Assembly (NCBI GenBank): GCA_017882375.1
Contig: JADGPP010000017.1
Coordinates: forward strand, 1-48,168
Reading direction: 5' to 3'
DNA: 48,168 bases
Source of the DNA: Solirubrobacteraceae bacterium
GTDB taxonomy: Bacteria > Actinomycetota > Thermoleophilia > Solirubrobacterales > Solirubrobacteraceae
Shown: positions 1,643-48,075 of the stretch, in pieces
Position numbering within the stretch: position 1 is the first letter of the stretch
Layout: every line of letters begins with the position of its first letter
Notes under the pieces: model-generated
Databases searched by the model: none
Seen by the model: only the letters and a program-made list of their open reading frames with translations
What the model was told of the DNA's origin: nothing
Position numbers and translations under genes: made by a program

Positions 1643-3646
1643 CTACCAGTGCACGCCCCGCGTGAGCGTCGCCATCGCGATCTGCTCGAAGGAAGCCTTC
1701 TCCTCTTCGTTCGTCTGGCCCTTGGAGGCCGCCGAGTCGGGGAACACGCGGTAGGCGAGGTGCAAGAGCCGGTCGACCGTCTTGGGCGAGAGCGCGTAGG
1801 CGATCTCGCCGACCGTGCCCAGGCGCGTGCCCATGTGCTTCGGACGCCCTCGCATCGCCTCGCAGATCATGTCGGCCGCCTCGTCGGGGGTGATCGCGGG
1901 GAAGGCGTCGTACATCTTCGTCGGCGCGATCATCGGCGTGCGCACGAGCGGCATGTGGATCGTCGTGAACGTCACGCCGTCGCCGACGACCTCCGAGGCG
2001 ACCACGCGCGTGAAGGCATCGAGCGCTGACTTGGAGGCGACGTAGGCGGAGAAGCGCGGCGGATTGGTCTGCACGCCGATCGACGAGATGTTGACGATGT
2101 GCCCGGAGCCGCGCTCGCGCATGTGCGGCAGCAGGCCGATGATCAGCTTGACAGCGCCGAAGTAGTTGAGCTGCATCGTCCGTTCGAAGTCGTGGAAGCG
2201 GTCGTAGCTGAGAGCGATCGAGCGGCGGATCGAACGGCCCGCGTTGTTGACGAGCATGTCGACGTTGCGGTGATCGGCGAGCACCCGCTCGATCAGCCGT
2301 TCGACGGACTCCATGTCGGAGATGTCCGCCGCGTACACGTACGCGGTCCCGCCGGCGGCGACGATCTCCGCGCGCGCCTCCTCGAGCTTCTCGACGTTGC
2401 GGGCGACCAGCAGCGGTATCCCGCCCGCCTCGGCGACCTTCAGGGCGGTCGAGCGGCCGATCCCCGACGAGGCGCCGGTGATCATCACGTGCTTGCCCTG
2501 CAGCGCCTCCTTGAGCGTGCGCCCGGCGGACATGCTCGGGTCCATCTCGCGCTCCCAGTAGTCCCACAGCCGTCCGGCGTAGTCGTGCAGCGCCGGCGGG
2601 CGCTCCAGCGCCGTTCCCGCCAGCGCCCGGCCGGCCTGGCGCGTGTCAAAGCGCGGTATGAGCTCCATGTGCGCGAGCACCTCTTCGGGAATGCCCAACT
2701 CGCGCAGCGCAAGTTTGCGCAGCTGGCGCCACGGCGGCAGGTCGAGCGCGAGCGCGAGCGGCCACTTGGGCAGCGGATCGGTCAGGCGTTTGTCGACGCT
2801 CACGGCAAAGCGCGGAGCGTGCGCCGCGGAGGCGAGCTCGTTGATCAGCTCGTCCACGCGCTGGCGGCGCGGATCGGTCAGGTGAAAGGCTTTGCCGTCG
2901 AGGTCGGGCTCGTGGGCGATGTGCTCGAGCGCGTCGACGACCCAGTCGACGGGGACGACGTTGGTGTTGCCGAGATCCAGCCCGACGAGCGGCGTCCACT
3001 CGGGGAGCAGCTGGCGCGCGCGCTGGATCGCCTTGAAGAAGTAGTACGGGCCGTCGATCTTGTCCATCTCGCCGGTGCGCGAGTCGCCGACGACGATGCC
3101 CGGCCGGTAGACGCGCCAGGGCACGTAGACCTGCTCGCGCACGATCCGCTCGGCCTCGAACTTGGTGCGGTGGTAGGGCGAGGGCAGCTTCTGGCCCTCG
3201 TCGAACATCTCCTCTTGAAAGGTGCCCTTGTACTCGCCGGCGACGGCGATCGAGGAGACGTGGTGCAGGCACTCGGCGTTGATCGCGCGCGCCAGTTCGA
3301 CCGCGTGCGTCGTGCCGCCGACGTTGACGGCGGTGTTCAGCTCGGGCGCCGCCGTCATGTCGTAGACGGCCGCGAGATGGAAGAAGTGCTTGATCTTGCC
3401 GCGCAGCTCGGTCACCTGCTCCTGCTCCACGCCGAGCAGCGGGCGGCGCAGGTCGCCGATCACCGGCTGGACGCGTTTGCCGGCCGCCGCGCCGGCGACG
3501 ACGCTCCAGCGCTCGATCAGGTCGTCCAGGCGCTCAAGCGAGGTCTCGCGCACGAGGACATACACCTTGCCCTGGCGTTTGTCGAGCAGCTGCTCGACCA
3601 GACGACGCCCGATGAAGCCGGTCGCTCCTGTGATGAAGTAGGCCAT
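1643..3646 (-). CDS. two-module fatty acyl-CoA reductase (AcrA1-like)
   Basis: Predicted NAD(P)H-dependent enzyme of 667 residues made of two Rossmann modules. The N-terminal module (about 1-375) starts with GATGFIG (residues 7-13) and has the active-site pair Y158/K162, as in extended SDR or male-sterility-type acyl reductases. The C-terminal module (about 382-667) is a classical SDR with TGASSGIG just after residue 388, NNAG, and Y535/K539. This fusion and length match the mycobacterial AcrA family, which reduces acyl-CoA to aldehyde or alcohol for wax or ether lipid synthesis. The ATG at 3646 is chosen because it falls directly before the glycine motif; the open frame runs further upstream but that part is Arg/Ala-rich and unlike the family. 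The enoyl-CoA hydratase-like gene lies next upstream on the same strand, fitting a lipid role. The exact substrate is inferred. Confidence 0.85.
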   Translation of the reverse strand: MAYFITGATGFIGRRLVEQLLDKRQGKVYVLVRETSLERLDDLIERWSVVAGAAAGKRVQPVIGDLRRPLLGVEQEQVTELRGKIKHFFHLAAVYDMTAAPELNTAVNVGGTTHAVELARAINAECLHHVSSIAVAGEYKGTFQEEMFDEGQKLPSPYHRTKFEAERIVREQVYVPWRVYRPGIVVGDSRTGEMDKIDGPYYFFKAIQRARQLLPEWTPLVGLDLGNTNVVPVDWVVDALEHIAHEPDLDGKAFHLTDPRRQRVDELINELASAAHAPRFAVSVDKRLTDPLPKWPLALALDLPPWRQLRKLALRELGIPEEVLAHMELIPRFDTRQAGRALAGTALERPPALHDYAGRLWDYWEREMDPSMSAGRTLKEALQGKHVMITGASSGIGRSTALKVAEAGGIPLLVARNVEKLEEARAEIVAAGGTAYVYAADISDMESVERLIERVLADHRNVDMLVNNAGRSIRRSIALSYDRFHDFERTMQLNYFGAVKLIIGLLPHMRERGSGHIVNISSIGVQTNPPRFSAYVASKSALDAFTRVVASEVVGDGVTFTTIHMPLVRTPMIAPTKMYDAFPAITPDEAADMICEAMRGRPKHMGTRLGTVGEIAYALSPKTVDRLLHLAYRVFPDSAASKGQTNEEEKASFEQIAMATLTRGVHW

Positions 3647-3750
3647 CGCGCAGCAGAGCCTACCTCGTATGCGCGAGCGGCTGCCGGGAGGCTTGGTCTT
3701 GCTGAACGCGCGCGTCGCCGCGGTCGAGCCGCAGCGCGCGCGTCGGCTGT

Positions 3751-4542
3751 CTAGGCGCCGGCTCCGGCGCCGCCACGGCCCTCGCCGGCGGCAAAGCGCT
3801 GGGCACCGCGCGCGCCGTCTTCGAACACCTCCGGGCCGGCCTTGGCCTCCAGCGCGAGCGCCTGCTGCAGCGGCATGCCGAAGCCCTCGATCGCGGCGCG
3901 CCGGTCGGCGAGCATCGTGCGTTGGGGGAAGCCCGCGAGACCCTCGGCGAGCGCCAGCGCGCGCTGCAGGTGCGCGCCCGGGGCGACGACCTCGGTGAGC
4001 ATGCCCATCGCCAGCGCCTCCTGCGCGGCGATCATGCGCCCGGTGAGGATCAGGTCGAGCGCGCGTCCGAGGCCGACGATGCGCGGCAGGCGCTGAGTGC
4101 CGCCGTCGATCAGCGGCACGCCCCAGCGCCGCTCGGGATAGCCGAGCGTGGAGTCCTCGGTGGCGATGCGCAGGTCGCACCACAGCGCGAGCTCCAGGCC
4201 GCCGGCGAGCGCGAAGCCGGAGATCGCGGCGATCGTCGGCTTCGACGGCGTCAGGCGCGTGAAGCCCATCGGGCCCTCCTCGCTCATCAGCCGCGCCACG
4301 AACGTCTCGGTCGCCTTGAGGTCGGCGCCCGCGCAGAAGGAGACACCGCCGGCGCCCGTCAGCACCATCACGCGCGCCTCGTCGTCGGCCTCGAAGCGCT
4401 GGTAGGCATCGTGCAGCAGCGCCGCCGTGGGCCCGTCGACGGCGTTGCGCCGGTGCTGACGGTCGATCGTGACCAGCGCGGCGGCGCCGCGACGCTCGTA
4501 GCGGACGGCGGTCGCATCGGCCGGCGGCGGTTGCTCGCTCAT
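3751..4542 (-). CDS. enoyl-CoA hydratase/isomerase family protein
   Basis: Crotonase-fold protein of 263 residues. The oxyanion-hole segments are visible as FCAGADLKA and FALAGGLELALWCD, followed by the YPERRWGVPLIDGG segment that carries the catalytic acidic residue in hydratases. Such enzymes hydrate or isomerise enoyl-CoA thioesters in fatty acid breakdown, although the family is broad and the reaction here is not proven. I place the start at the ATG at 4542: the longer frame up to 4599 adds a Gly/Pro-rich stretch without family character and would overlap the neighbouring small membrane protein gene. It sits about 100 bases upstream of the acyl-CoA reductase on the same strand, possibly co-transcribed with it. 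Confidence 0.85.
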   Translation of the reverse strand: MSEQPPPADATAVRYERRGAAALVTIDRQHRRNAVDGPTAALLHDAYQRFEADDEARVMVLTGAGGVSFCAGADLKATETFVARLMSEEGPMGFTRLTPSKPTIAAISGFALAGGLELALWCDLRIATEDSTLGYPERRWGVPLIDGGTQRLPRIVGLGRALDLILTGRMIAAQEALAMGMLTEVVAPGAHLQRALALAEGLAGFPQRTMLADRRAAIEGFGMPLQQALALEAKAGPEVFEDGARGAQRFAAGEGRGGAGAGA

Positions 4543-4908: not shown

Positions 4909-6915
4909 ATGGCTCTACTGATCGCCTCCGACATGCACAAGGACATGGCCGGGCAGTCGCTGCTGCGCGGGGTGTCGTTCAAGCTGGAGCGCCGCGAACG
5001 GATGACGGTCGCCGGGCGCAACGGCACGGGCAAGACGACGCTGCTGCGGATGCTCGCGGGGGAGACGTCGATCGACCGCGGCGAGCTGAGCGTGGCCAAG
5101 GGCGTGCGCATCGCGCTGCACGACCAGCGCCCGCCGCGCGAGCGCGGGATGGCGCTGCGTGACTACGTGCTGTCGGGCTGCGTGGAAGAGCTGCAGATCG
5201 AGGCCGAGCTGGCCGAGCTGGAGGCGCGCATGACGGCGGGCGACTCAGAAGACGCGCTGCTGTCGCGATACGCACGCGCGCAGGGACGCCTGGAGGCGCG
5301 CGGCGGCTATCTGTGGCGCGACCGCGCGACGGTGATGGCGCGCGGGCTGGGGTTCGGCGACGACGACCTCGATCGCCCGCTGGACACGTTCTCCGGCGGT
5401 CAGCTCACGCGCGCCTCGCTGGCCCGCGCCCTGGCGACGGGCGCGGACGTGCTGCTGCTGGACGAGCCGACCAACCATCTGGACATCGAGTCGCTGGAGT
5501 GGCTGGAGCAGACGCTCGTCGAGCTCGACGCGGCTGTCGTGCTCGTCGCGCACGACCGCTGGTTTCTGGAGGCGGTGGGCACTGCGGTGCTGGAGATCGA
5601 GGCCGGGCGCTCGCGCTTCTTCGCCGGCACGTGGCATCAGTGGCGCAAGGAGCAGGCGGCGCGCGAGATCGCGCTGGGTCGTGCGATCGACTCCCAGAAG
5701 GCGGAGATCGCGCGCATGGAGCGGTTCATCGAGCGCTTCCGCTACAAGGCCTCGAAGGCCCGCCAGGCGCAGTCGCGCGTGAAGAAACTGGCGAAGATCG
5801 AGCGGATCGAGCGCTGGCCGATCTCCGATCGGTCCGCGGCGGGCAAGGGCCTGGACTTCGAGTTCGCTGCGCCGGAACGCTCGGGACGCGTGATCTTCGA
5901 GCTGATCGACGGGCGCGTGGAGATCGGCGCGGAGAAGGTGCTGCTGCTGGAGCACGCCGAGCTGTGGCTGGAGCGTGGCGAGCACGTGTCGCTGGTGGGG
6001 CCCAACGGATCGGGCAAGACGACGCTGATCGAGACGCTCGCCGGACGGCGCGAGCTGGCGGCGGGAAAGCTGAGCACCGGGCACAACGTCAAGGTCGGCT
6101 ACCTCTCCCAGCACGCCGACGAGCTCGGCGCGGGCGGCGACCCCGGCCAGAGCGTGCTCGATGCGGCGCAGCGGGCGACGGGCCTGACACAGGGCAAGGC
6201 GCGCGCGCTGCTCGGGCGCTTCCTGTTCTCCGGCGAGGACGCGGAAAAGCCGCTGGAAGGGCTGTCCGGCGGCGAGCGCAGGCGTCTGTCGCTGGCGATC
6301 CTCGTGCACTCGGGCGCCAACGTGCTGATCCTCGACGAGCCGACCAACCACCTCGACATCGAGAGCCGCGAGGCGCTGGAGGACGCGCTGCGAGCGTTCA
6401 CCGGCGCAGTGCTGCTCGTCTCGCACGACCGCGCCCTGCTCGACGCCGTCGGCACGCGGACCGTGTCGGTCGAGCAGCGCTCGCTGCACAGCTACCTGGG
6501 CGGCTGGCCGGAGTACGTGCGCGTGCGCGAAGAGCGTCGCGCCGGCGGTGGCGGCGGCCTCGCCCAGGCCCCGGTCTCCGCAGCTTCGACGCCTGCGGGC
6601 AACGGCTCCCGGCCGGACGCCTCCGGCGCAGGCGAGGTCGTCGCCAACGGCTCGGCAGGCGTTAGGCCCGCCGGTGCGGCGAATGGGGGCAAGCGCAGGC
6701 CGAAGGGGCCGTCGAAGAACCGCGTCAGCGCGCAGGAGCAGGCCGAGCGCGTCGTGGAAGACGCCGAGGCGGCGATGCGCGCGCTGGAGGACGAGCTGGC
6801 CGACCCGGCGGCGTGGGCGACGAAGTACGAGTCGGCGAAGTCCGAGGCGCGCCACACGGCCGCGCGCCGCGCGGTCGAGGACGCCTACGCGCGCCTGGAG
6901 GCGCTGATCGACTGA
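4909..6915 (+). CDS. ABC-F family ATPase (ribosome-associated type)
   Basis: Soluble protein of 668 residues with two ABC ATPase cassettes and no membrane segment, which defines the ABC-F family. Cassette 1 has GRNGTGKTT, SGGQ and LLLDEPTNHLDIES; cassette 2 has GPNGSGKTT, SGGE and LILDEPTNHLDIES. Between them is the charged linker (about 245-310) that reaches into the ribosomal E site in characterised members. A Gly/Ala-rich spacer leads to a C-terminal Glu/Ala-rich coiled coil (about 600-668) like that of Uup. Members act in translation (EttA, Uup) or protect ribosomes from antibiotics; the sequence alone does not decide which. The ATG at 4909 is used because it precedes the first conserved segment; the frame upstream is not family-like. 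Confidence 0.9.
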   Translation: MALLIASDMHKDMAGQSLLRGVSFKLERRERMTVAGRNGTGKTTLLRMLAGETSIDRGELSVAKGVRIALHDQRPPRERGMALRDYVLSGCVEELQIEAELAELEARMTAGDSEDALLSRYARAQGRLEARGGYLWRDRATVMARGLGFGDDDLDRPLDTFSGGQLTRASLARALATGADVLLLDEPTNHLDIESLEWLEQTLVELDAAVVLVAHDRWFLEAVGTAVLEIEAGRSRFFAGTWHQWRKEQAAREIALGRAIDSQKAEIARMERFIERFRYKASKARQAQSRVKKLAKIERIERWPISDRSAAGKGLDFEFAAPERSGRVIFELIDGRVEIGAEKVLLLEHAELWLERGEHVSLVGPNGSGKTTLIETLAGRRELAAGKLSTGHNVKVGYLSQHADELGAGGDPGQSVLDAAQRATGLTQGKARALLGRFLFSGEDAEKPLEGLSGGERRRLSLAILVHSGANVLILDEPTNHLDIESREALEDALRAFTGAVLLVSHDRALLDAVGTRTVSVEQRSLHSYLGGWPEYVRVREERRAGGGGGLAQAPVSAASTPAGNGSRPDASGAGEVVANGSAGVRPAGAANGGKRRPKGPSKNRVSAQEQAERVVEDAEAAMRALEDELADPAAWATKYESAKSEARHTAARRAVEDAYARLEALID

Positions 6916-9446: not shown

Positions 9447-11508
<2,062 letters not shown>

Positions 11509-11583
11509 GCGCTGTCTGGCGCCGGCGAAGGTTATGGAGGGGGCTATCGTGAGACAGCGCAAGCGGATGGGAGTGGTGTGCCG

Positions 11584-12789
11584 ATGAGGACGCTGGAGCA
11601 CTTGGACGTGGAGGGCAAGCGCGTACTGGTACGGGTGGACTTCAACGTGCCGCTCGGCAAGGACGCCGACGGACGTGTGGTGGTGGCCGACGACACGCGG
11701 ATCGTCGCGGCGCTGGCGACGATCGAGGAGCTGCGCGCGCGCGGAGCGAGCCTGGTGCTCGTCTCGCATCTCGGCCGGCCCGAGGGTCGGCGCGAGGAGG
11801 ATCTCTCGCTGGCGCCGGTCGTCGCGCGGCTGGCCGAGCTGACCGAGGCACCGGTGACGCTCGCACCGGCGGTCGTCGGCGAGCAGGTCAAGGCGCTGGC
11901 CGAGCAGCTCGGCGCGGGTGAGCTGCTGGTGCTCGAGAACGTGCGCTTCGAGCCCGGCGAGACGACCAACGACCCGGCGCTGGCGCAGGCGCTGTCGCAG
12001 CTGGCCGACGTGTACGTCAACGACGCGTTCGGCGCTGCGCACCGCGCGCACACGAGCACCGAGGGCGTCGCGCACCTGCTGCCCAGCGCCGCCGGGCGGC
12101 TGCTGGAGCGCGAGGTGAGGACGCTCGCGGAGATCCTCCAGAGCCCCGCGCGTCCGCTCGTGGCGGTGATCGGCGGCGCGAAGGTGGCCGACAAGATCGG
12201 CGTGATCGACCGCTTCCTGGACCTCGCCGACGTCGTGATCATCGGCGGGGCGATGTGCTTTCCGTTCCTCTGCGCGCAGGGCCACGCGGTCGGCGAGTCG
12301 CTGTGCGGCGACGAGGACACCGAGCACGCGCGGCGCGCGCTGGCCAAGGCGACCGACCCCGGCCGTGCAAGCGTGCAGCTGCCGACAGACCTGGTGATCG
12401 GCGACCGACTGGCAGCCGACGCCGAGCATCGCGTGCTCGACGGCATCGAGGTCCCGCCCGGCTGGATGGGGCTGGACATCGGCCCGAAGACCGCCGAGCG
12501 CTACGCGGCGGAGGTCGCGCTCGCGGGGTCTGTCTTCTGGAACGGGCCGATGGGAGCGTTCGAGCTGGCGCCGTTCGCCGCCGGCACGCGCCGCGTGGCG
12601 GAGGCGGTCGCCGCGGCGCCTGGCGTCACCGTCGTCGGCGGCGGCGACTCGGCCGCGGCGCTCGCGCGCTTTGGCCTGGAGGACGCCGTCGATCACCTCT
12701 CGACCGGCGGCGGCGCGACGCTCGAGCTGGTCGAGGGACGCGCACTGCCGGGCGTGCAGGCGCTGCAGGGCGCGGGCGTGATCTCGTGA
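11584..12789 (+). CDS. pgk: phosphoglycerate kinase
   Basis: Transfers the high-energy phosphate of 1,3-bisphosphoglycerate to ADP. The 401-residue protein carries the N-terminal signature VLVRVDFNVPL, the substrate-binding HLGRP segment, the hinge and nucleotide-binding stretch GGAKVADK, and the C-terminal FWNGPMGAFE and VGGGDSAAAL motifs. The ATG at 11584 has a GGAG at about 10 bases and matches the usual MRTL start; a GTG six bases earlier (11578) is in frame and cannot be excluded. The stop overlaps the tpiA start codon (GTGA), so the genes are translationally coupled. Confidence 0.96.
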   Translation: MRTLEHLDVEGKRVLVRVDFNVPLGKDADGRVVVADDTRIVAALATIEELRARGASLVLVSHLGRPEGRREEDLSLAPVVARLAELTEAPVTLAPAVVGEQVKALAEQLGAGELLVLENVRFEPGETTNDPALAQALSQLADVYVNDAFGAAHRAHTSTEGVAHLLPSAAGRLLEREVRTLAEILQSPARPLVAVIGGAKVADKIGVIDRFLDLADVVIIGGAMCFPFLCAQGHAVGESLCGDEDTEHARRALAKATDPGRASVQLPTDLVIGDRLAADAEHRVLDGIEVPPGWMGLDIGPKTAERYAAEVALAGSVFWNGPMGAFELAPFAAGTRRVAEAVAAAPGVTVVGGGDSAAALARFGLEDAVDHLSTGGGATLELVEGRALPGVQALQGAGVIS

Positions 12790-13553
12790 CGGCGGCGCGC
12801 ACGCCGCTGATCGCGGGCAACTGGAAGATGTACAAGACAGAGCGCGAGGCCGAGGACTACATCCAGGCGCTGCTGCCGCGCGTGTCGTCGATCGACGGCG
12901 CCGACGTGGCGGTCTGCGTGCCGTTCACCGACCTGCGCGCGATGGTCGACAGCGCGCGCGGCTCGCGCGTGGAGGTGTACGCGCAGAACATGCACCACGA
13001 GCCCGAGGGCGCGTTCACCGGCGAGGTCTCGCCGCTGATGCTGTCAGACGTCGGCGCGCAGGGTGTCGTGCTCGGCCACTCCGAGCGGCGCGAGCAGTTC
13101 GGCGAGACCGACCGCGCGCTTGCGCTGAAGGTGCCCGCGGCGCTCGCCGCCGGGCTCACGCCGATCCTCTGCGTGGGCGAGACCGAGTCAGAGCGCGAGA
13201 ACGAGGACACCGACCGCAAGCTGCGCCAGCAGATCAAGGACGACCTGGTCAACGTCCCGAGCGAGCGCCTGACGGACGTAGTCATCGCCTACGAGCCGAT
13301 CTGGGCGATCGGCACGGGCAAGGTGGCCACGCCAGAGCAGGCGCAGGAGGCGATCGCCTTCATCCGCGCGCTCGTCGGCGATCGCGACGCGCAGGCCGCG
13401 CAGGGCGTGCGCATCCTCTACGGGGGATCGGTCAAGGCCGACAACGCCGCCGAGCTGCTCGCATTGCCCGATGTCGACGGCGCGCTCGTCGGCGGCGCTT
13501 CGCTGCAGGCCGACTCGTTCGCGCAGATCGTGGGCGCGGCCGCGGCGCGATGA
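12786..13553 (+). CDS. tpiA: triose-phosphate isomerase
   Basis: Interconverts dihydroxyacetone phosphate and glyceraldehyde 3-phosphate. The 255-residue TIM barrel has all catalytic residues: Lys14 in AGNWKMY, His98 in LGHSERRE, and Glu170 in AYEPIWAIGTGK, plus the phosphate-binding loop YGGSV near the C-terminus. The GTG start overlaps the pgk stop by three bases, and its own stop overlaps the gpmI start (ATGA), so translation is coupled through the run. Length is normal for the family. Confidence 0.97.
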   Translation: MTAARTPLIAGNWKMYKTEREAEDYIQALLPRVSSIDGADVAVCVPFTDLRAMVDSARGSRVEVYAQNMHHEPEGAFTGEVSPLMLSDVGAQGVVLGHSERREQFGETDRALALKVPAALAAGLTPILCVGETESERENEDTDRKLRQQIKDDLVNVPSERLTDVVIAYEPIWAIGTGKVATPEQAQEAIAFIRALVGDRDAQAAQGVRILYGGSVKADNAAELLALPDVDGALVGGASLQADSFAQIVGAAAAR

Positions 13554-15142
13554 GCGACCGCGCTGCGCCGGCCAGCCTGCCGGTCGCAAGCGTGTGCCTG
13601 GTCGTGCTCGACGGGTGGGGGCTGGCCGAGCCCGGTCCCGGAAACGCCGTGTCGCTGGCGAGCACGCCGGTGTTCGACGAGCTGTGGCGCGACTTCCCGC
13701 ACACGACGCTGACGGCCTGCGGACGCGCCGTCGGGCTGCCGGAGGGACGGATGGGCAACTCGGAGGTCGGCCACCTGAACCTCGGCGCGGGCGCGGTCGT
13801 GCGCCAGGATCTCGTGCGCATCGACGACGCGATCGCCGACGGCACGCTGGCGGGCAACGAGGTGCTGCTCGGCGCCTTACCGGCCGGTGGGCGGTTGCAC
13901 CTGATCGGACTCGTCTCAGACGGCGGTGTGCACTCCTCGCTGGAGCACCTGCGTGCGCTGATCGCGATCGCGCGCGATCGCGACGCCGGCGAGGTGATCG
14001 TGCATGCGTTCACCGACGGCCGTGACACGCTGCCGCACGCCGGAGCGGGCTACCTGGCCGAGCTGGACGCCACGCCGGGCGCGCGCGTGGGCTCGCTGAT
14101 CGGGCGCTACTGGGCGATGGATCGCGACCGCCGCTGGGAGCGCACGCAGCGGGCCTACGACCTGCTCGTGCACGGGCGGGCCCCGTACAGCGCCGCCGGC
14201 GGCGAGCACGCGGTGCGTGAGGCCTACGAGCGCGGCGAGACCGACGAGTTCATCGAGCCGACGCTCGTCGGCGAGCCGGCGGCGATCGCCTCGGGTGACA
14301 GCGTGATCGCGTTCAACTTCCGCCCCGATCGCATGCGCCAGCTCACGCGCGCGCTGGCCGAGCGCGACTTCGGCCAGGCACCCGACCCCGGCGCGGGGCG
14401 GCCCGACAGCGAGTTGCCGGGCTGGCGCGGGCGCGGCGGTGGTGAGCCGGTCGCGCGCTACACGACGCTCACTCAGTACGAGCAGGGCTGGCCGTATCCG
14501 GTCGTGTTCGCGCCCGAGCGCCCGGCGACGACGCTCGGAGCGGTGCTCGCGGGCGTGGGCGTGGGGCAACTGCACGTGGCCGAGACGGAGAAGTACCCGC
14601 ACGTGACGTACTTCTTCAACGGCGGCGACGAGGCGCAGCTGCAAGGCGAGCGGCGTGAGCTCGTGGATTCGCCGCGCGACGTGCCGACATACGACCACAA
14701 GCCGCAGATGAGCGCGCGCGAGGCAGCGCACGCGTTCGCGCAGGCCTGGCGCGAGGACCGCCCGGCGTTTGCGATCGTCAACTTCGCAAACGCCGACATG
14801 GTCGGGCACACGGGCGTGATCGAGGCCGCGGTGCAGGCGATCGAGACGGTCGACACGTGTCTCGGCGAGCTCGTCGCGGCGGTGCGCGAGCAGGGGGGAG
14901 CGTGCGTGGTGACGGCCGACCACGGCAACGCCGACCACATGCTCGAGCCCGACGGCAGCCCGAACACCGCGCACTCGCTGAACCCCGTCCCGCTGATCGT
15001 CACCGTGCCAGGCGTGACGCTGCGCGCCCAAGACGGCATACTCGCGGATGTGGCGCCCACCGTCCTCGACCTATTGGGAATCGCCCGGCCGGCCGGGATG
15101 ACCGGCCGCACGCTGCTGCTCGACGACCAGACCACGCGATGA
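13550..15142 (+). CDS. gpmI: 2,3-bisphosphoglycerate-independent phosphoglycerate mutase
   Basis: Manganese-dependent mutase that converts 3- to 2-phosphoglycerate through a phosphoserine. The 530-residue protein shows LDGWGLAEPG with the first metal ligand, the nucleophile Ser71 in GRMGNSEVGHLNLG, DGRDT, and the metal-binding NFANADMVGHTG and ADHGNADHM motifs of the alkaline-phosphatase fold. Its position directly behind tpiA with a 4-base overlap is notable because many actinobacteria use a cofactor-dependent enzyme (gpmA) instead. Its stop overlaps the next start by 4 bases. Confidence 0.96.
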   Translation: MSDRAAPASLPVASVCLVVLDGWGLAEPGPGNAVSLASTPVFDELWRDFPHTTLTACGRAVGLPEGRMGNSEVGHLNLGAGAVVRQDLVRIDDAIADGTLAGNEVLLGALPAGGRLHLIGLVSDGGVHSSLEHLRALIAIARDRDAGEVIVHAFTDGRDTLPHAGAGYLAELDATPGARVGSLIGRYWAMDRDRRWERTQRAYDLLVHGRAPYSAAGGEHAVREAYERGETDEFIEPTLVGEPAAIASGDSVIAFNFRPDRMRQLTRALAERDFGQAPDPGAGRPDSELPGWRGRGGGEPVARYTTLTQYEQGWPYPVVFAPERPATTLGAVLAGVGVGQLHVAETEKYPHVTYFFNGGDEAQLQGERRELVDSPRDVPTYDHKPQMSAREAAHAFAQAWREDRPAFAIVNFANADMVGHTGVIEAAVQAIETVDTCLGELVAAVREQGGACVVTADHGNADHMLEPDGSPNTAHSLNPVPLIVTVPGVTLRAQDGILADVAPTVLDLLGIARPAGMTGRTLLLDDQTTR

Positions 15143-38872: not shown

Positions 38873-39397
38873 TCAGGTGGTCATGCCGCGGGGCGGTGGC
38901 GGGATGGCTTGCACGGTGCTCGAGTCCAGCGGCGTGCAGCCGGCTGGCGGCCAGTCCGTCGCGAACACGCACGTGATGAGCGACCCGGGTCGCGCGGCGC
39001 TGGGGGCTACGAGGCCGGCCCATCCCTCGCGCCAGAGCTGCTCACCAGCCCGTTGATAGGCAGGCCATGTGCTCCGGCCCGGTCGGGGGGCCTCGAGTGA
39101 GACGCGTCGCAGTTGCTCGACGTCGCTGAGGTCGGCAAGCTCGAGGTCAAGGCGCCAGCGATGATGGTCGTAGGGAATGTGATCTTGGGGCGAGAGTCCC
39201 CACTCGGCAAGCGAGCGATACCACTCCGCGGTGGCTGTTGTCAGGGTGTCGGCGAGGTAGAGGGCGCGCACGACATCGCCTCGCTGCCAGCGTCCATCCG
39301 ATGGTGTGTCCGCGCGTTCGAGCAGGTCAGCTACGTGCGGTACGTGCCTGATCCACGTGCCCTCGACGGTGCGAGGACGAACGGGCAACTGCTCCAC
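38873..39397 (-). CDS. RES-domain toxin
   Basis: Toxin of a type II toxin-antitoxin pair, 174 residues. The RES-type pattern is visible: an early Arg in TWIRHVPH, DGRWQRG (34-40), ALYLADTLTTATAEW with a conserved Glu at 58, and a later beta-rich part. RES toxins break down NAD or transfer ADP-ribose, stopping cell growth (MbcT, ParT). The start is a GTG two bases after the antitoxin stop, so the toxin is translated second from the same transcript, the usual order in this family. Confidence 0.83.
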   Translation of the reverse strand: MEQLPVRPRTVEGTWIRHVPHVADLLERADTPSDGRWQRGDVVRALYLADTLTTATAEWYRSLAEWGLSPQDHIPYDHHRWRLDLELADLSDVEQLRRVSLEAPRPGRSTWPAYQRAGEQLWREGWAGLVAPSAARPGSLITCVFATDWPPAGCTPLDSSTVQAIPPPPRGMTT

Positions 39398-39399
39398 GG

Positions 39400-39735
39400 T
39401 CAGGAGACGCCGGGGTACTCGATCTCGGCGATCAGCTTGGCGACCCTGCGGTACTCGCCACGGGCGATCAGCTCGATCGGCTTCTCGTCATCCAACGCGA
39501 GGATCGGACGCTGCAGCCAGACTGGAATCGACTCCGGTTGCACGACGAGAGCAAGTCGTTTGATCATCTCCGCCAGCTCGATCAGTCGTTCGGCGCGTGC
39601 GCCCGTCGGCTCGCTTCGGCCGGCAAGCCAGCCCCGTACGGTGCTCGGCTTCGCTCCGGTCGCGGCAGCGATCATCCGGTCAGATAGGCCGGCCATGTCG
39701 TGAACTCGCTGGGCGTCTTCGAGCAATGGACTCAT
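39400..39735 (-). CDS. Xre/MbcA/ParS-type antitoxin
   Basis: Antitoxin that should bind and neutralise the RES toxin and repress the operon, 111 residues. An N-terminal helix-turn-helix of Xre type (about 14-45, SDRMIAAATGAKPSTVRGWLAG) is followed by the short C-terminal toxin-binding domain (about 70-111) with WLQRPILALDDEKPIELI, typical of DUF2384 proteins. The ATG at 39735 is chosen because it gives the usual length; the open frame extends upstream with unrelated sequence. The toxin gene follows after 2 bases. Confidence 0.86.
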   Translation of the reverse strand: MSPLLEDAQRVHDMAGLSDRMIAAATGAKPSTVRGWLAGRSEPTGARAERLIELAEMIKRLALVVQPESIPVWLQRPILALDDEKPIELIARGEYRRVAKLIAEIEYPGVS

Positions 39736-39755
39736 GGACTGGAAGTGTAGCTCAC

Positions 39756-39765
39756 AATCGCGATT
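39756..39765. promoter_or_regulatory. candidate operator of the toxin-antitoxin pair
   Basis: AATCGCGATT is a perfect 10-base palindrome 20 bases upstream of the antitoxin ATG, within the likely promoter region. Antitoxins of this type bind palindromes at their own promoter. Confidence 0.4.
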
Positions 39766-40247
39766 ACGTCGCCAAACAGTCGTATTGACGTGGGCGGTCC
39801 CAAAGGGCGAGGTCTGGGCCGCCGAACCCTCGTTGATCGACAGTCTCACCGGCACGCTTTGCCTATGCTCATGTAACGCGCCTATTGCTTGAGGAGCCTC
39901 GGGCGATAGCCAAGGAGCTGGCTCGCGCGACCAGCGTGCGCGACTGATCTAGAGGGCTCCTCGGTTGAAATCCCTCGGTTGATTCTTTGGCCCCTCCGGC
40001 CCGAATCTTGCGCGCTACCGCGCAGGGGAACGTCGGTAGCGCCCTCTTGCGCGGCCCGCTGGAATCCGGTCAGCGCGTCTTCGTCTCGACCTACACTCGT
40101 CACGCGACAAGGAGTGGGGCGAGAGGCTGGCTGGCGGCAAGAGCCAAAGGTCAGCCCCTCGACCCTCTCAGAAACCAATCACTCCAGGCGAAGACGAAAC
40201 ACCCGGTGCGCTGGGAAGTTCGTTTTCACCTGGCTACGATCAGCAGC
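39766..40247. other. intergenic region after the toxin-antitoxin pair
   Basis: About 480 bases with no convincing gene. Several short open frames exist on both strands but show no family motif. It should contain the promoters for the leftward antitoxin gene and the rightward membrane protein gene. A degraded gene fragment cannot be excluded. Confidence 0.4.
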
Positions 40248-40885: not shown

Positions 40886-42682
40886 CCCTCGTCACTTCTT
40901 CATGCTCCGCGCGTCTCGTGCTTCAGCGCGGAGTGACTACGCCAAGGCTCAGGCCGCTATCGCCTGGGCGTTCTCATCCTCAGCCGCCTTCGGTTCGCCC
41001 ATGCGCCTCCACCTCTCCAGGCTCAGCGCGTGCGTGATCGTCACGACCGCCGCCACCTCCAGATCCACCTGCGACTGCCGGTAGAACCAGCGCTTGCTCT
41101 TGAGCAGCCCGAAGCGCTGCGTGAATTGACTCCCGAACGCGCCCTCCTGCCCGTTGAAGCGGGCCACGCCATATGCCTTGGAGAGCGGGTCGTTGAAGGT
41201 CAGCGGGTTGCCCACATCCCACTCGACGCGCGCCCTATCGTGCGGCAGGCACTGCTGGAACTTGCTGCTCGCGTTGTCCGTCTGCATCCACAGGCCAGAG
41301 GTGATGGTCACGCTCTTGCACTTCGGGCACTCGCCCTTCAGCCGCGCCGTGGCCTTGCCGGTCTTCGGTTGGATGGAGGCCACGCGAGAGGTCTTCCCCT
41401 TGCCGCAGGCGCAGACCAGCTCTCGATGCCCATTGAGGAACCAGTCAGGATGCCGGTCGATCGGGTAGCGCTTGCCACCCCGCTCCTTGGCGTCCTTCTT
41501 GGAGCTTGGCCTCTTGGCATGGCTCGACAGGTGGGTGTTCTCGATGATGCCGATCTCGCGCAGCTCGCGCCGAAGCTCATGGGAGTGGAAGTTGCAATCC
41601 GTGCTCAGGACCCGAAGCTCCTGGCCGTCACGCTCCGGGCCTCCACCGTCCGCGCCTCCGAGCGTCCTCAAGACCTGGCCGACCTCGGGCACCATCTCGA
41701 TGAGCGTCGTGTTCTCGCCGGCGTGCATCGGCACGTTGCGAGGCGCGAGGACCGTGCCCTTGCTGCTCATCACCATGACGATGTTCCAGCCGTGCCCGGA
41801 GTGGTCGGCGTTGCGCCCCTTGTTGGGAACGTAGCCGGCCTCGGGGGCGGTGATGGCAGGCACCTTCTTCCCGTCGCGCCCCTTCTTCCATTCGTTGACC
41901 ACTTCGATGACATTGCCGTCCTTGTCCTTCTTGACGATGGGCGCGGTCGCGTGCGTCTCCAGCTTGGAGCCGTCCGCGTAGAGGACGCGGCACTCCTCGC
42001 GGGCGCCGGGGACGCTCGTCAGCTTCTCCGTGAGCGCCCATCGCTCCAACTGCTGCATCAGCGCCGCCAGCTCAGCCTCGGGCAGCCATTTGAGGCGGAA
42101 GTCTGAGACCCAGCTGTCAGAGGGCACACCCTCCATCCATCGCTGCGGCTTCCCGCCGCCATGCGGACGCGGCTTGTCGAAGCCAAGAAGCTCACGCGTC
42201 CGCTCCGCCTTGTCCGTGGTCAGCCAGTCGCGCGTATGCACCGTGGATTGCGAGGCGATGACCCGGCGCAGCATCTCAAAGCGCCAGTAGTCGAGGGCGA
42301 AGAATTTGGGGCGCTGGCCCCGGCGCTTCTTCTCACCCGGCCTCGGGGCGAGGCGAGCGGCGTCTGCGGCTTCGAGCGATGGCAGCACGACCTCCCGGAA
42401 GCCGCGCAGCTCCTCGACGGCGAGGACGACCTCGCCGGGCTCGATGCCACGCAGCTCCTCGCGCGATGCCGCGTAGTCGAGGGTGCGGTCCTCTGGAGCG
42501 GGAGGGAGGGTCGCTGACCGGCTGGCGCGGCGCTTGGGAACGGTCTCGCCGGCTTGGACTGCGCGCAGCGCAGGACGGGTGTCCTTGGCGGCGCTTCCGC
42601 CGGACTGGCCCTCTGCCTTGCTCACCCGCTTGCGACTCACCCCCATCCAATAGGGCTCGGGGAGGACCCGACCGGACGAGGG
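40886..42682 (-). mobile_element. putative insertion sequence around the DDE transposase
   Basis: Defined only by the transposase gene and an 8-base inverted repeat (CCCTCGTC at the left, GACGAGGG at the right) about 60 and 30 bases outside the gene. Further matching between the ends is poor and no target duplication was recognised, so the borders are tentative. Confidence 0.3.
40949..42646 (-). CDS. DDE transposase with zinc-ribbon insert
   Basis: A 565-residue transposase-like protein. Candidate catalytic residues are D225 in LYADGSK, D350 in STDCNFHS and E501 in NGQEGAFGS. Between the second Asp and the Glu there is a Cys set (CACGKG, CPKCKS), a zinc-ribbon insert, and the end has a FGLLKSKRWFYRQSQVDLE segment. 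The pattern recalls IS1182/IS4-like elements, but I cannot assign the family with certainty. Both ends look complete in frame, so it could still be active. A short inverted repeat CCCTCGTC/GACGAGGG at 40886-40893 and 42675-42682 might mark the ends. Confidence 0.72.
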   Translation of the reverse strand: MGVSRKRVSKAEGQSGGSAAKDTRPALRAVQAGETVPKRRASRSATLPPAPEDRTLDYAASREELRGIEPGEVVLAVEELRGFREVVLPSLEAADAARLAPRPGEKKRRGQRPKFFALDYWRFEMLRRVIASQSTVHTRDWLTTDKAERTRELLGFDKPRPHGGGKPQRWMEGVPSDSWVSDFRLKWLPEAELAALMQQLERWALTEKLTSVPGAREECRVLYADGSKLETHATAPIVKKDKDGNVIEVVNEWKKGRDGKKVPAITAPEAGYVPNKGRNADHSGHGWNIVMVMSSKGTVLAPRNVPMHAGENTTLIEMVPEVGQVLRTLGGADGGGPERDGQELRVLSTDCNFHSHELRRELREIGIIENTHLSSHAKRPSSKKDAKERGGKRYPIDRHPDWFLNGHRELVCACGKGKTSRVASIQPKTGKATARLKGECPKCKSVTITSGLWMQTDNASSKFQQCLPHDRARVEWDVGNPLTFNDPLSKAYGVARFNGQEGAFGSQFTQRFGLLKSKRWFYRQSQVDLEVAAVVTITHALSLERWRRMGEPKAAEDENAQAIAA

Positions 42683-42746: not shown

Positions 42747-42810
42747 GCAACGGAGCTTGCATCCGCGCATGGCTGGCAGCCGGTGAGGGCATCGTCCGCC
42801 GGCTCCTGTT
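42747..42810 (+). repeat. 64-bp perfect direct repeat, copy 1
   Basis: Runs from GCAACGGAGCTTGC to CGGCTCCTGTT and is identical over 64 bases to copy 2, 440 bases downstream. It contains a small GGCT-GGC-AGCC hairpin. The copies flank the small membrane protein gene. Confidence 0.9.
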
Positions 42811-42846
42811 TGAGAAGCAAGGACATTCGCGGCCCGGGGTTGGGTA

Positions 42847-43176
42847 ATGACTCTGCATGCAATGGGGCAGCGATGGTGCCGTACGATCCACCTGGTGACA
42901 CGCCAGCCGGCTGACAAGCGCGAGAACCCGGTGCGTCGAGCAATACGCTGGCTCGGCCCAGCCCAGCCGCCGACCAAACGCGAAAGGGGTCTTCTGCGGT
43001 TGGGCGCGCTTGTCGGACTGGCGCTGATAGTTGCCAGTGGGCTGACGCTGATAGTTGCCAGTGGGCTCGACGGATGGTTCCGCGCGGTCGGAGTCGGATT
43101 GTTTGGCGGCTGCGCCGGAGGACTTGTGTGGAACCGGGGCTTTCGGCCGAAGCCCCGCAAGCCTCCGCCCAGATAG
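42847..43176 (+). CDS. small membrane protein with tandem LIVASGL repeat
   Basis: A 109-residue protein with a basic N-terminal half, two adjoining hydrophobic stretches (about 50-70 and 75-92) and a basic Arg/Lys/Pro tail. The middle carries LIVASGL twice in a row, from a 24-base tandem duplication (22 of 24 bases identical, 43022-43067). The gene sits exactly between the two 64-bp direct repeats. No family recognised; the start could also lie at a later codon, so the reading frame itself is only moderately supported. Confidence 0.5.
   Translation: MTLHAMGQRWCRTIHLVTRQPADKRENPVRRAIRWLGPAQPPTKRERGLLRLGALVGLALIVASGLTLIVASGLDGWFRAVGVGLFGGCAGGLVWNRGFRPKPRKPPPR
43022..43067 (+). repeat. 24-base tandem duplication inside the small membrane gene
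   Basis: CGCTGATAGTTGCC...GGGCT is repeated with a 24-base period, keeping the frame and doubling the heptapeptide LIVASGL. Confidence 0.85.
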
Positions 43177-43186
43177 CCCGCTACGA

Positions 43187-43250
43187 GCAACGGAGCTTGC
43201 ATCCGCGCATGGCTGGCAGCCGGTGAGGGCATCGTCCGCCGGCTCCTGTT
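43187..43250 (+). repeat. 64-bp perfect direct repeat, copy 2
   Basis: Identical to copy 1 at 42747-42810 over all 64 bases. It lies just before the DUF4238 gene, where it could also contain its promoter region. Confidence 0.9.
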
Positions 43251-43304: not shown

Positions 43305-44324
43305 GTGTCCGCCAGCCAGTCCGTGAAGCACCACATCAACCCGCGTCATCTGCTCGCGCACTTTGAGAACGACGGTGGTGGCCTAACGGTGGTGCGGCGG
43401 AGCCCGTGGGTCGTGCTCCGCAACCAGACACCTGAGAGCGTTGGCTACATCAGGAGGCACAACAGCCGCCGGAACCCTGACGGCACATGGAGCGATGAGA
43501 GCGAGCAGGATCTCGCCAAATTGGATGCCGTGGGCGCGGTCGAGCTTGACGACGCCATCCGGTTTGGCATTGACGCTAACGCAGAGGCTCATCTGCGCCT
43601 GCTGGACATGGACCTGGAGCATCGAGCGAACCTGCAGCTGTTCATCGCCACGATGATGGTTCGGACCCCGAGCTTCAGGGCGCGCTTTGACGAGTCGGCA
43701 TTGCCGACACTCATCGAGGACATGCGAGGGCGCCTGGAGGACGGGTTCGCAGCGGGGACGATTGACCCTCAGAGCTACAAGGCCCTCACCACCGCCTTTG
43801 AGACGCCAGGCCACGTGAGGCTCGACCGACCCGAGCATCGCCATCTGGACGGGATGGTGCCGTTGATCGTCAGCGCTGCCACGAGGCTGCACCTCGACAC
43901 CCTCGTGGGCGTCCGGCGCTTCGCGGAGCCGCTGCTCCTCACCGGCGAGGAGCCTGTCGTCGTGTTCCCTGATGCTGACTTCTCGAAAGGCCGGTCAGCC
44001 GGGGAGTTCCTGTTCTCGTCTGGTGACAGCCCCATCCAGGCGTGGAGAGAAATGAACACGCTGCTCGACCAAGTTGATGAGAAGCGGCGCACGCTGGCTG
44101 CCCTCGCAATCGCCATTGATCCTCACACTGTCTTTATGATGTTCAACGCTGACACAGACGATGGGGGCAAGTCTGGGTTCATCGCCTCCCAAGTGCAGGC
44201 CGAGGGCCTAGCTGGCGTGGTCAACATCCTGGCGACCGGAAGCTCCACCTGGGTAGCAGGCCGAGACGACTGTGATTTCCTGTCACTGATAGTCAAGAGC
44301 GCTCACGAGCACGGGGCGGCCTGA
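43305..44324 (+). CDS. DUF4238 domain protein
   Basis: A 339-residue protein that fits the DUF4238 pattern: an N-terminal HHINPRHLLAHF segment, a helical middle (LEHRANLQLFIATMMVRTPSFR), and LLLTGEEPVVVFP near residue 205, as in the conserved 'T-x-D-x-P' type strand of the family. The function is unknown; such genes are common in accessory islands and near defence genes. The start is a GTG placed immediately before the conserved segment. The second copy of the 64-bp repeat ends 54 bases upstream. Confidence 0.75.
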   Translation: MSASQSVKHHINPRHLLAHFENDGGGLTVVRRSPWVVLRNQTPESVGYIRRHNSRRNPDGTWSDESEQDLAKLDAVGAVELDDAIRFGIDANAEAHLRLLDMDLEHRANLQLFIATMMVRTPSFRARFDESALPTLIEDMRGRLEDGFAAGTIDPQSYKALTTAFETPGHVRLDRPEHRHLDGMVPLIVSAATRLHLDTLVGVRRFAEPLLLTGEEPVVVFPDADFSKGRSAGEFLFSSGDSPIQAWREMNTLLDQVDEKRRTLAALAIAIDPHTVFMMFNADTDDGGKSGFIASQVQAEGLAGVVNILATGSSTWVAGRDDCDFLSLIVKSAHEHGAA

Positions 44325-46816: not shown

Positions 46817-46979
46817 TAGGCTCGCTGTCGACCGTGAGGTCTGACCAGCATGCGTTGTGTCGCTCGCCGCCGCCCGAGGATCCCCGGCGTGACTTGATAG
46901 GAGCGTGGCACCGCCCCAACTGAGGTCTGTCCGCCGGAGGTCCACTTCAACGGCAATCTCGATGAAGGGACGGTTGGCA

Positions 46980-48075
46980 ATGATCGTGATCGGAGCGGAT
47001 ATCCACAAGAGCACTCATGCATTGGCGGCGGTTTCAGGCGATGGCGCAGTGGTGGCCGGCGAGCTTGAGATCCGAGCCGATGAGGGCGGGCACCGTGCTG
47101 CTTTGCGTTGGGCGCGGGAGCTCGATTCCGAGCGGGTGTGGGCGATCGAGGACTGCAGGCATCTCTCAAGGCGCCTAGAGCAGGCGCTGATCGCCGCCGG
47201 TGAGCGAGTGCTCCGCGTGCCGCCGAAGATGATGGGCCAGGCTCGCCGCGGCGAACGCGAGCCGGGCAAGTCCGATCAGATCGACGCCAGGGCTGTCGCA
47301 CGCGCCGTGGTCAGAGAGGGCATCGAGCGCTTCCCGGCCGCATTCCTGGACGAGCGGGCGATGGACCATCCGCCTGCTCGGCGATCACCGCTCGGACTTG
47401 GTTGCTGAGCGCACTCGCCAGATCAACCGCCTGCGCTGGCATCTGGTTGACCTCTGCCCGGAGCTCGAGGCCAGCATCCCTGCCCGCCAGCTCCACAGTG
47501 GCGTGATGCTGGATCGCATCGCCCGCCGCCTTCGCCGCGAGCAGCGCACCGCACGCACGCGAGTGGCGCTGGAGCTGGTGGCGAGCGTCCGCGCCATCTC
47601 CCGCCAGGCAAATGAGCTTGAAAGCGAGCTGCGCTCGCTAACTATGGCCTATCGCCCAACGCTGCTGGCCGAGCAGGGCCTGGGTGTCCTCACCGCGGCG
47701 ACACTGATCGGGCGCACCGCCGGCGCTGAGCGCTTCCCGACCGACGCGCACTTCGCCCGCCATGCCGGGGTGGCGCCAATTCCTGTCTGCTCCGGGCGCA
47801 CCGAGCGCCATCGCCTGCATCGTGGTGGAGACCGCCAGCTCAACCGCGCGCTTCACGTGATCGCGATCACCCGCGCCCGCATCGACCCGCAGACACGCCA
47901 ATACCTGGAGCGCAAGCGCGCCGAGGGCAAGGGCAACCGCGAGGCCCTACGCTGCCTCAAGCGCCACCTCGCGCGCCGCATTCACCGCCTCCTCTCGATG
48001 CCTCCCGTCAACACCGACCGCCGGACACGGATCCAGCTGAATAGCGCAATTTCCGTGCCCTGCTTGACATACTAA
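46980..48075 (+). pseudogene. IS110-family transposase with frameshift
   Basis: Two consecutive frames make one IS110-type enzyme. The first (46980 to about 47367) has the DEDD RuvC-like start: GADIHKSTH, AIEDC, and KSDQIDARAVARA. After about 47367 the protein continues in the +1 frame with IRLLGDHRSDLVAERTRQ and runs through the coiled region to the C-terminal transposase_20 domain (GVLTAATLIG, FARHAGVAPIP, NRALH) and the TAA at 48075. One extra base near 47367 breaks the gene, so this copy is probably inactive unless a frameshift is used. It starts about 160 bases after the IS630 element. Confidence 0.85.

Follow-up and report, generated by a model that had tools for sequence, protein, structure and literature searches.

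The window analysed here, a 48,168-nucleotide stretch of a draft Solirubrobacteraceae genome, carries a small membrane-protein gene between two identical 64-bp direct repeats termed R1 and R2 (collectively R), and we read this gene as being carried by a single-gene cassette with direct repeats as its boundaries, with a probability of about one half. We prefer this reading to a one-off duplication because each of the two copies of an otherwise unfamiliar gene lies between direct repeats, and one of the two repeat pairs belongs to a family of dispersed sites, R', that bound exchangeable units.

In a comparison within the window, R1 and R2 agree exactly over 64 bp with a start-to-start distance of 440 bp, as the initial annotation had stated, and the similarity stretches to 72 bp at 96% identity once three mismatches on the right side are allowed. 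The left edge of the repeat is sharp, and beyond the right edge seven of the next 12 bases still match. At a spacing of 150-3000 bp between copies, the window contains no other exact direct repeat of more than 17 bp. A search for the 64-mer across the own genome and 232 genomes from the order, as had been suggested, returned just the pair in the window, and R is absent from the plasmids and viral contigs searched. Matches to R in other genomes (E values up to 5) are short and background-like and were dismissed. Fold analysis revealed no special structure in R.

A single gene lies between the repeats, and the earlier claim that they flank it precisely holds on the 3' side, where the stop codon precedes R2 by about 10 bp; at the 5' end the fit is loose, with R1 and the probable start 84 bp apart. 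The longest open reading frame begins at ATG 42847. Since the alignment with the paralogue shifts frame 5' of GTG 42895 and the conserved stretch starts just before this codon, the ATG is probably not the true start, and translation probably runs from the GTG to the stop at 43176. The promoter-like block GCGATGGTGCCGTACGAT directly 5' of the GTG marks the point where paralogue conservation begins, and a possible -10 element in this region would imply a leaderless layout. The predicted protein has basic ends, a strong first and a weaker second hydrophobic segment, and no match in Pfam (above cut-off), NCBIfam, PHROGs or PADLOC. No homologue of the gene was found in the phages, plasmids, IMG/VR entries and species contigs searched, and among all genomes and databases covered it is seen in this one genome only, in two copies; weak matches in other genomes of the order (E 1e-3 to 1e-2) look like unrelated or generic hydrophobic proteins and were set aside. 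The 24-base in-frame duplication noticed earlier within the gene does exist, albeit as an imperfect one, and extends the first hydrophobic segment by eight residues (LIVASGLT). Since the paralogue carries a single unit, the duplication is most simply explained as a gain in the window copy.

Table 1. Coordinates of the repeats, genes and sites discussed in the text (positions without a locus name refer to the window)
Feature	Position	Strand	Remarks
Repeat copy R1 (64 bp)	42747-42810	.	Identical to 43187-43250
Repeat copy R2 (64 bp)	43187-43250	.	Begins about 10 bp past the stop codon of the small gene
Small membrane-protein gene (probable start), 93 aa, two hydrophobic segments	42895-43176	+	Paralogue alignment, dN/dS, hydropathy
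Possible -10 element TACGAT	42882-42887	+	Just 5' of the GTG, leaderless layout; kept in the paralogue
24-bp in-frame tandem duplication	43015-43038 / 43039-43062	+	Two units, 22/24 match
DUF4238 gene, next downstream, accessory	43305-44324	+	Pfam PF14022, E 1.8e-9
RES-domain toxin and Xre/MbcA/ParS-type antitoxin	38873-39855	-	Adjoins the region
R' sites around the C139 paralogue	L003 4991-5017 and 5410-5436		Spacing 419
R'-delimited toxin-antitoxin-type units	L070 (G110:C41) 1919-3782
R'-delimited toxin-antitoxin-type units	L071 (G110:C290) 1915-2668
R'-delimited toxin-antitoxin-type units	L094 (G000:C145) 10985-14436	-
D1 sites (GGAGCCAACCGAAGTCAATGCGAACC...)	L096 (G101:C96) 1181, 2148, 3679, 6754, 9102

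The genome holds one paralogue only, on contig C139 (locus L003, minus strand, about 5076-5336), which is 74% identical to the window gene at the DNA level over about 310 bp. With a dN/dS ratio of about 0.31 (NG86) to 0.43 (YN00), both gene copies appear to be maintained as proteins. The block shared by the two copies, again about 310 bp, comprises the promoter and the coding region only, and since the upstream flanks are unrelated (13 of 60 bases match), this block was moved; it sits inside the window repeats by 59 bp on the 5' side and by about 7 bp on the 3' side. The paralogue is also bracketed by a direct repeat, namely R' (27 bp at 92.6%, 44 bp at 77%), which is oriented opposite to the gene. 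R1 and R2 differ at none of 64 positions (95% upper bound 4.6%), as against 27 of 85 third codon positions for the gene copies, and at the level of sequence divergence this shows that the R1/R2 pair was made, or else homogenised, long after the gene copies diverged. As a side observation, contigs C139 and C145 share an identical 99-bp end (L003 6764-6862; G000:C145 1-99) and are probably adjacent.

R' is a dispersed site of 65-75 bp. A search of congeners with the C139 region matched R' copies in G110, and sequence-only models, whose weaker matches are not trusted, count six sites in the own genome (G000; two on C139, three on C145 and one on C160), five in G110 and two in G101, both congeners, and one in a member of another family (G178). 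The units between R' sites code for an RHH antitoxin with PemK, Fic, DUF4160 with DUF2442, and DUF2283 in G110, and for RHH with PemK (PemK/MazF) and PIN with Phd/YefM in the own genome; PIN and GNAT genes lie between sites in G101. The RHH-PemK unit of G110 aligns with that of the own genome from R' to R' (75% over 740 bp) and has different neighbours, and in G110 one DUF2283 unit is found downstream of two different units (98% over 432 bp), the mismatches between its copies clustering in the 5' half of R'. This homology from site to site amid different neighbours, together with the recurrent DUF2283 unit, argues from a comparison of few draft genomes that R' sites bound exchangeable units. 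A second class of sites in G101, termed D1, comprises five intergenic copies of 68 bp that alternate with R', and R' and D1 have 5' contexts in common, e.g., GACAAGAAAAATGG. Rfam lists no known structured RNA at R or R' above gathering scores, and plasmids yielded only short, weak matches to R'. A search with PF22022, a general tyrosine-recombinase domain, detected recombinases in the own genome and none in G101 or G110, and linked no enzyme to the sites. One candidate tyrosine recombinase of the own genome, 333 aa long, is located at G000:C145:28138.

R lacks the conserved R' core (TGGGCGAAAC...GCGCAAACC) and falls outside the R' family as so defined. The R cores score 1.8 bits on the R' profile, a value attained by 16 of 4000 background windows; the match is weak and lies on the minus strand, which puts it opposite to the gene, as R' is in C139. 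For the longer R2 region, which partly consists of the gene end, none of 4000 background windows scores as high. The profile match hints at a relatedness of R and R' and is suggestive only.

The DUF4238 gene downstream of R2 is nearly absent from the family, with one weak match among 146 family genomes. Upstream, a 565-aa open reading frame (40949-42646, minus strand) looks like a transposase by eye and has no match in Pfam, NCBIfam, PHROGs or PDB sequences, and at the contig end two overlapping frames (46905-48075, plus strand) represent an IS110-type transposase that is probably frameshifted. The single-copy form proposed for relatives was not encountered: no empty site carrying a lone R came to light, for neither the 64-mer nor an orthologous locus turned up in relatives. 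Nor did the pair show itself as a conserved old feature.

According to the cassette reading, a unit of ~440 bp, consisting of the gene with its own promoter and one repeat copy, would have become inserted in an accessory region adjoining transposase genes and the RES/Xre toxin-antitoxin pair, such that the 64-bp sequence now flanks the gene on each side. By analogy, R would serve the window copy as R' serves the C139 copy, and insertion rather than local duplication would have produced the R1/R2 pair. Recombination of R1 with R2 would delete the gene and leave one repeat copy, and homologous recombination between repeats could drive the shuffling. The initial annotation had offered a recent duplication, a recombination cassette or a mobile unit that can be lost; the cassette is favoured by the paralogue in unrelated flanks between R' sites, and insertion or loss drew no support from relatives. 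Several findings count against a cassette. R occurs only twice, and its status as a “site” is therefore by analogy; it is devoid of the R' core, and the searches revealed neither an empty site nor a recombinase linked to the sites. Moreover, R' opposes the gene in C139, and the ends of the repeat-bounded intervals in the window and in C139 are not homologous, unlike those of a transposon with defined ends.

Among known systems, integron cassettes and CALIN arrays, which are bounded by attC sites, resemble the units described here in carrying one or two small genes each, in the stop codon shortly before a 60-70-bp site, in a cargo rich in toxin-antitoxin genes and in common units that occur in different order and neighbourhood. 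This last behaviour, one site-bounded unit in different neighbourhoods, is seen for R' units only (RHH-PemK and DUF2283) and not for R. A functional likeness is possible, but R, R' and D1 were rejected as attC sites: they contain no palindrome, and their fold z-scores range from about -1.6 to +1; the consensus fold of R' is weak, with a covariation term near 0. Simple sites of the RYYYAAC/GTTRRRY type, sought by eye, are likewise missing from R, R' and D1; R is bounded by GCAAC...CTGTT with misfitting adjacent bases, and R' has neither motif. Nor does the genome show a complete integron, since no integrase (IntI) match reached the curated cut-off: the best TIGR02249 match in the own genome, which is 96% complete, reaches 74.5 bits versus a cut-off of 265, and all 14 control genomes also give sub-cut-off matches. 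By way of background, IntegronFinder 2.0 found no complete integrons in Actinobacteria (PMC9024848). An insertion with target-site duplication would share with our case the direct repeats of different sequence at two insertion places, but 64 bp is very long for such a duplication, the interval contains no transposase, and conserved element ends common to the two copies are absent. The neighbourhood with its RES/Xre pair and transposases recalls toxin-antitoxin accessory islands, from which the small protein differs in matching no toxin or antitoxin family. A broader proposal, that the order possesses a non-integron cassette system whose 65-75-bp sites are unstructured and comprise R', D1 and, as a possible third class, R, with exchangeable units rich in toxin-antitoxin genes, a putative recombinase and the window gene as one unit, is speculative, and we consider it improbable. 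The literature searched on repeat-bounded toxin-antitoxin cassettes lacking an integrase contained nothing relevant.

The main rival to the cassette is a one-off repair event, in which a fragment bearing the gene was inserted at a staggered break (end-joining with fill-in, akin to a long target-site duplication) or template switching took place, such that the 64-bp duplication arose with no dedicated system. We judge this unlikely, yet it accounts for R being known only as this pair, for the identity of the copies, which implies youth, for the absence of special structure and for the difference in repeat length between the two gene loci (64 bp in the window, about 27-44 bp on C139). On this view, however, chance would have placed the only paralogue between direct repeats as well, and between repeats of a recurrent family that bounds exchangeable units. 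Tandem amplification and collapse, i.e., doubling of R and the gene by unequal crossing-over and later deletion of the second gene copy to yield R-gene-R, fits a near-exact repeat with residual similarity at its right edge, and the 24-bp duplication in the gene shows that slippage occurs here; yet no remnant of a second gene follows R2, and this course of events appears quite unlikely. Still less credible is R as a regulatory element duplicated 5' of two genes. Its distance to the next start is indeed similar (148 bp before GTG 42895, 118 bp before GTG 43305), but R does not include the promoter-like block that the small gene and its paralogue have in common, and the paralogue lacks R altogether. 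Finally, an assembly artefact in this draft of 172 contigs (contamination estimate 3%) is highly improbable, given that the similarity of the copies breaks off at either edge, that they are located well within a 48-kb contig and that C139 shows an independent counterpart of similar layout.

If the duplication was a one-off event, it is an ordinary one. If the repeats are recombination sites, the locus would represent cassette capture in a lineage where no integron integrase was detected, by means of sites that do not fold like attC; and if homologous recombination does the work, the comparison would still reveal a shuffling of small accessory and toxin-antitoxin genes in these bacteria.
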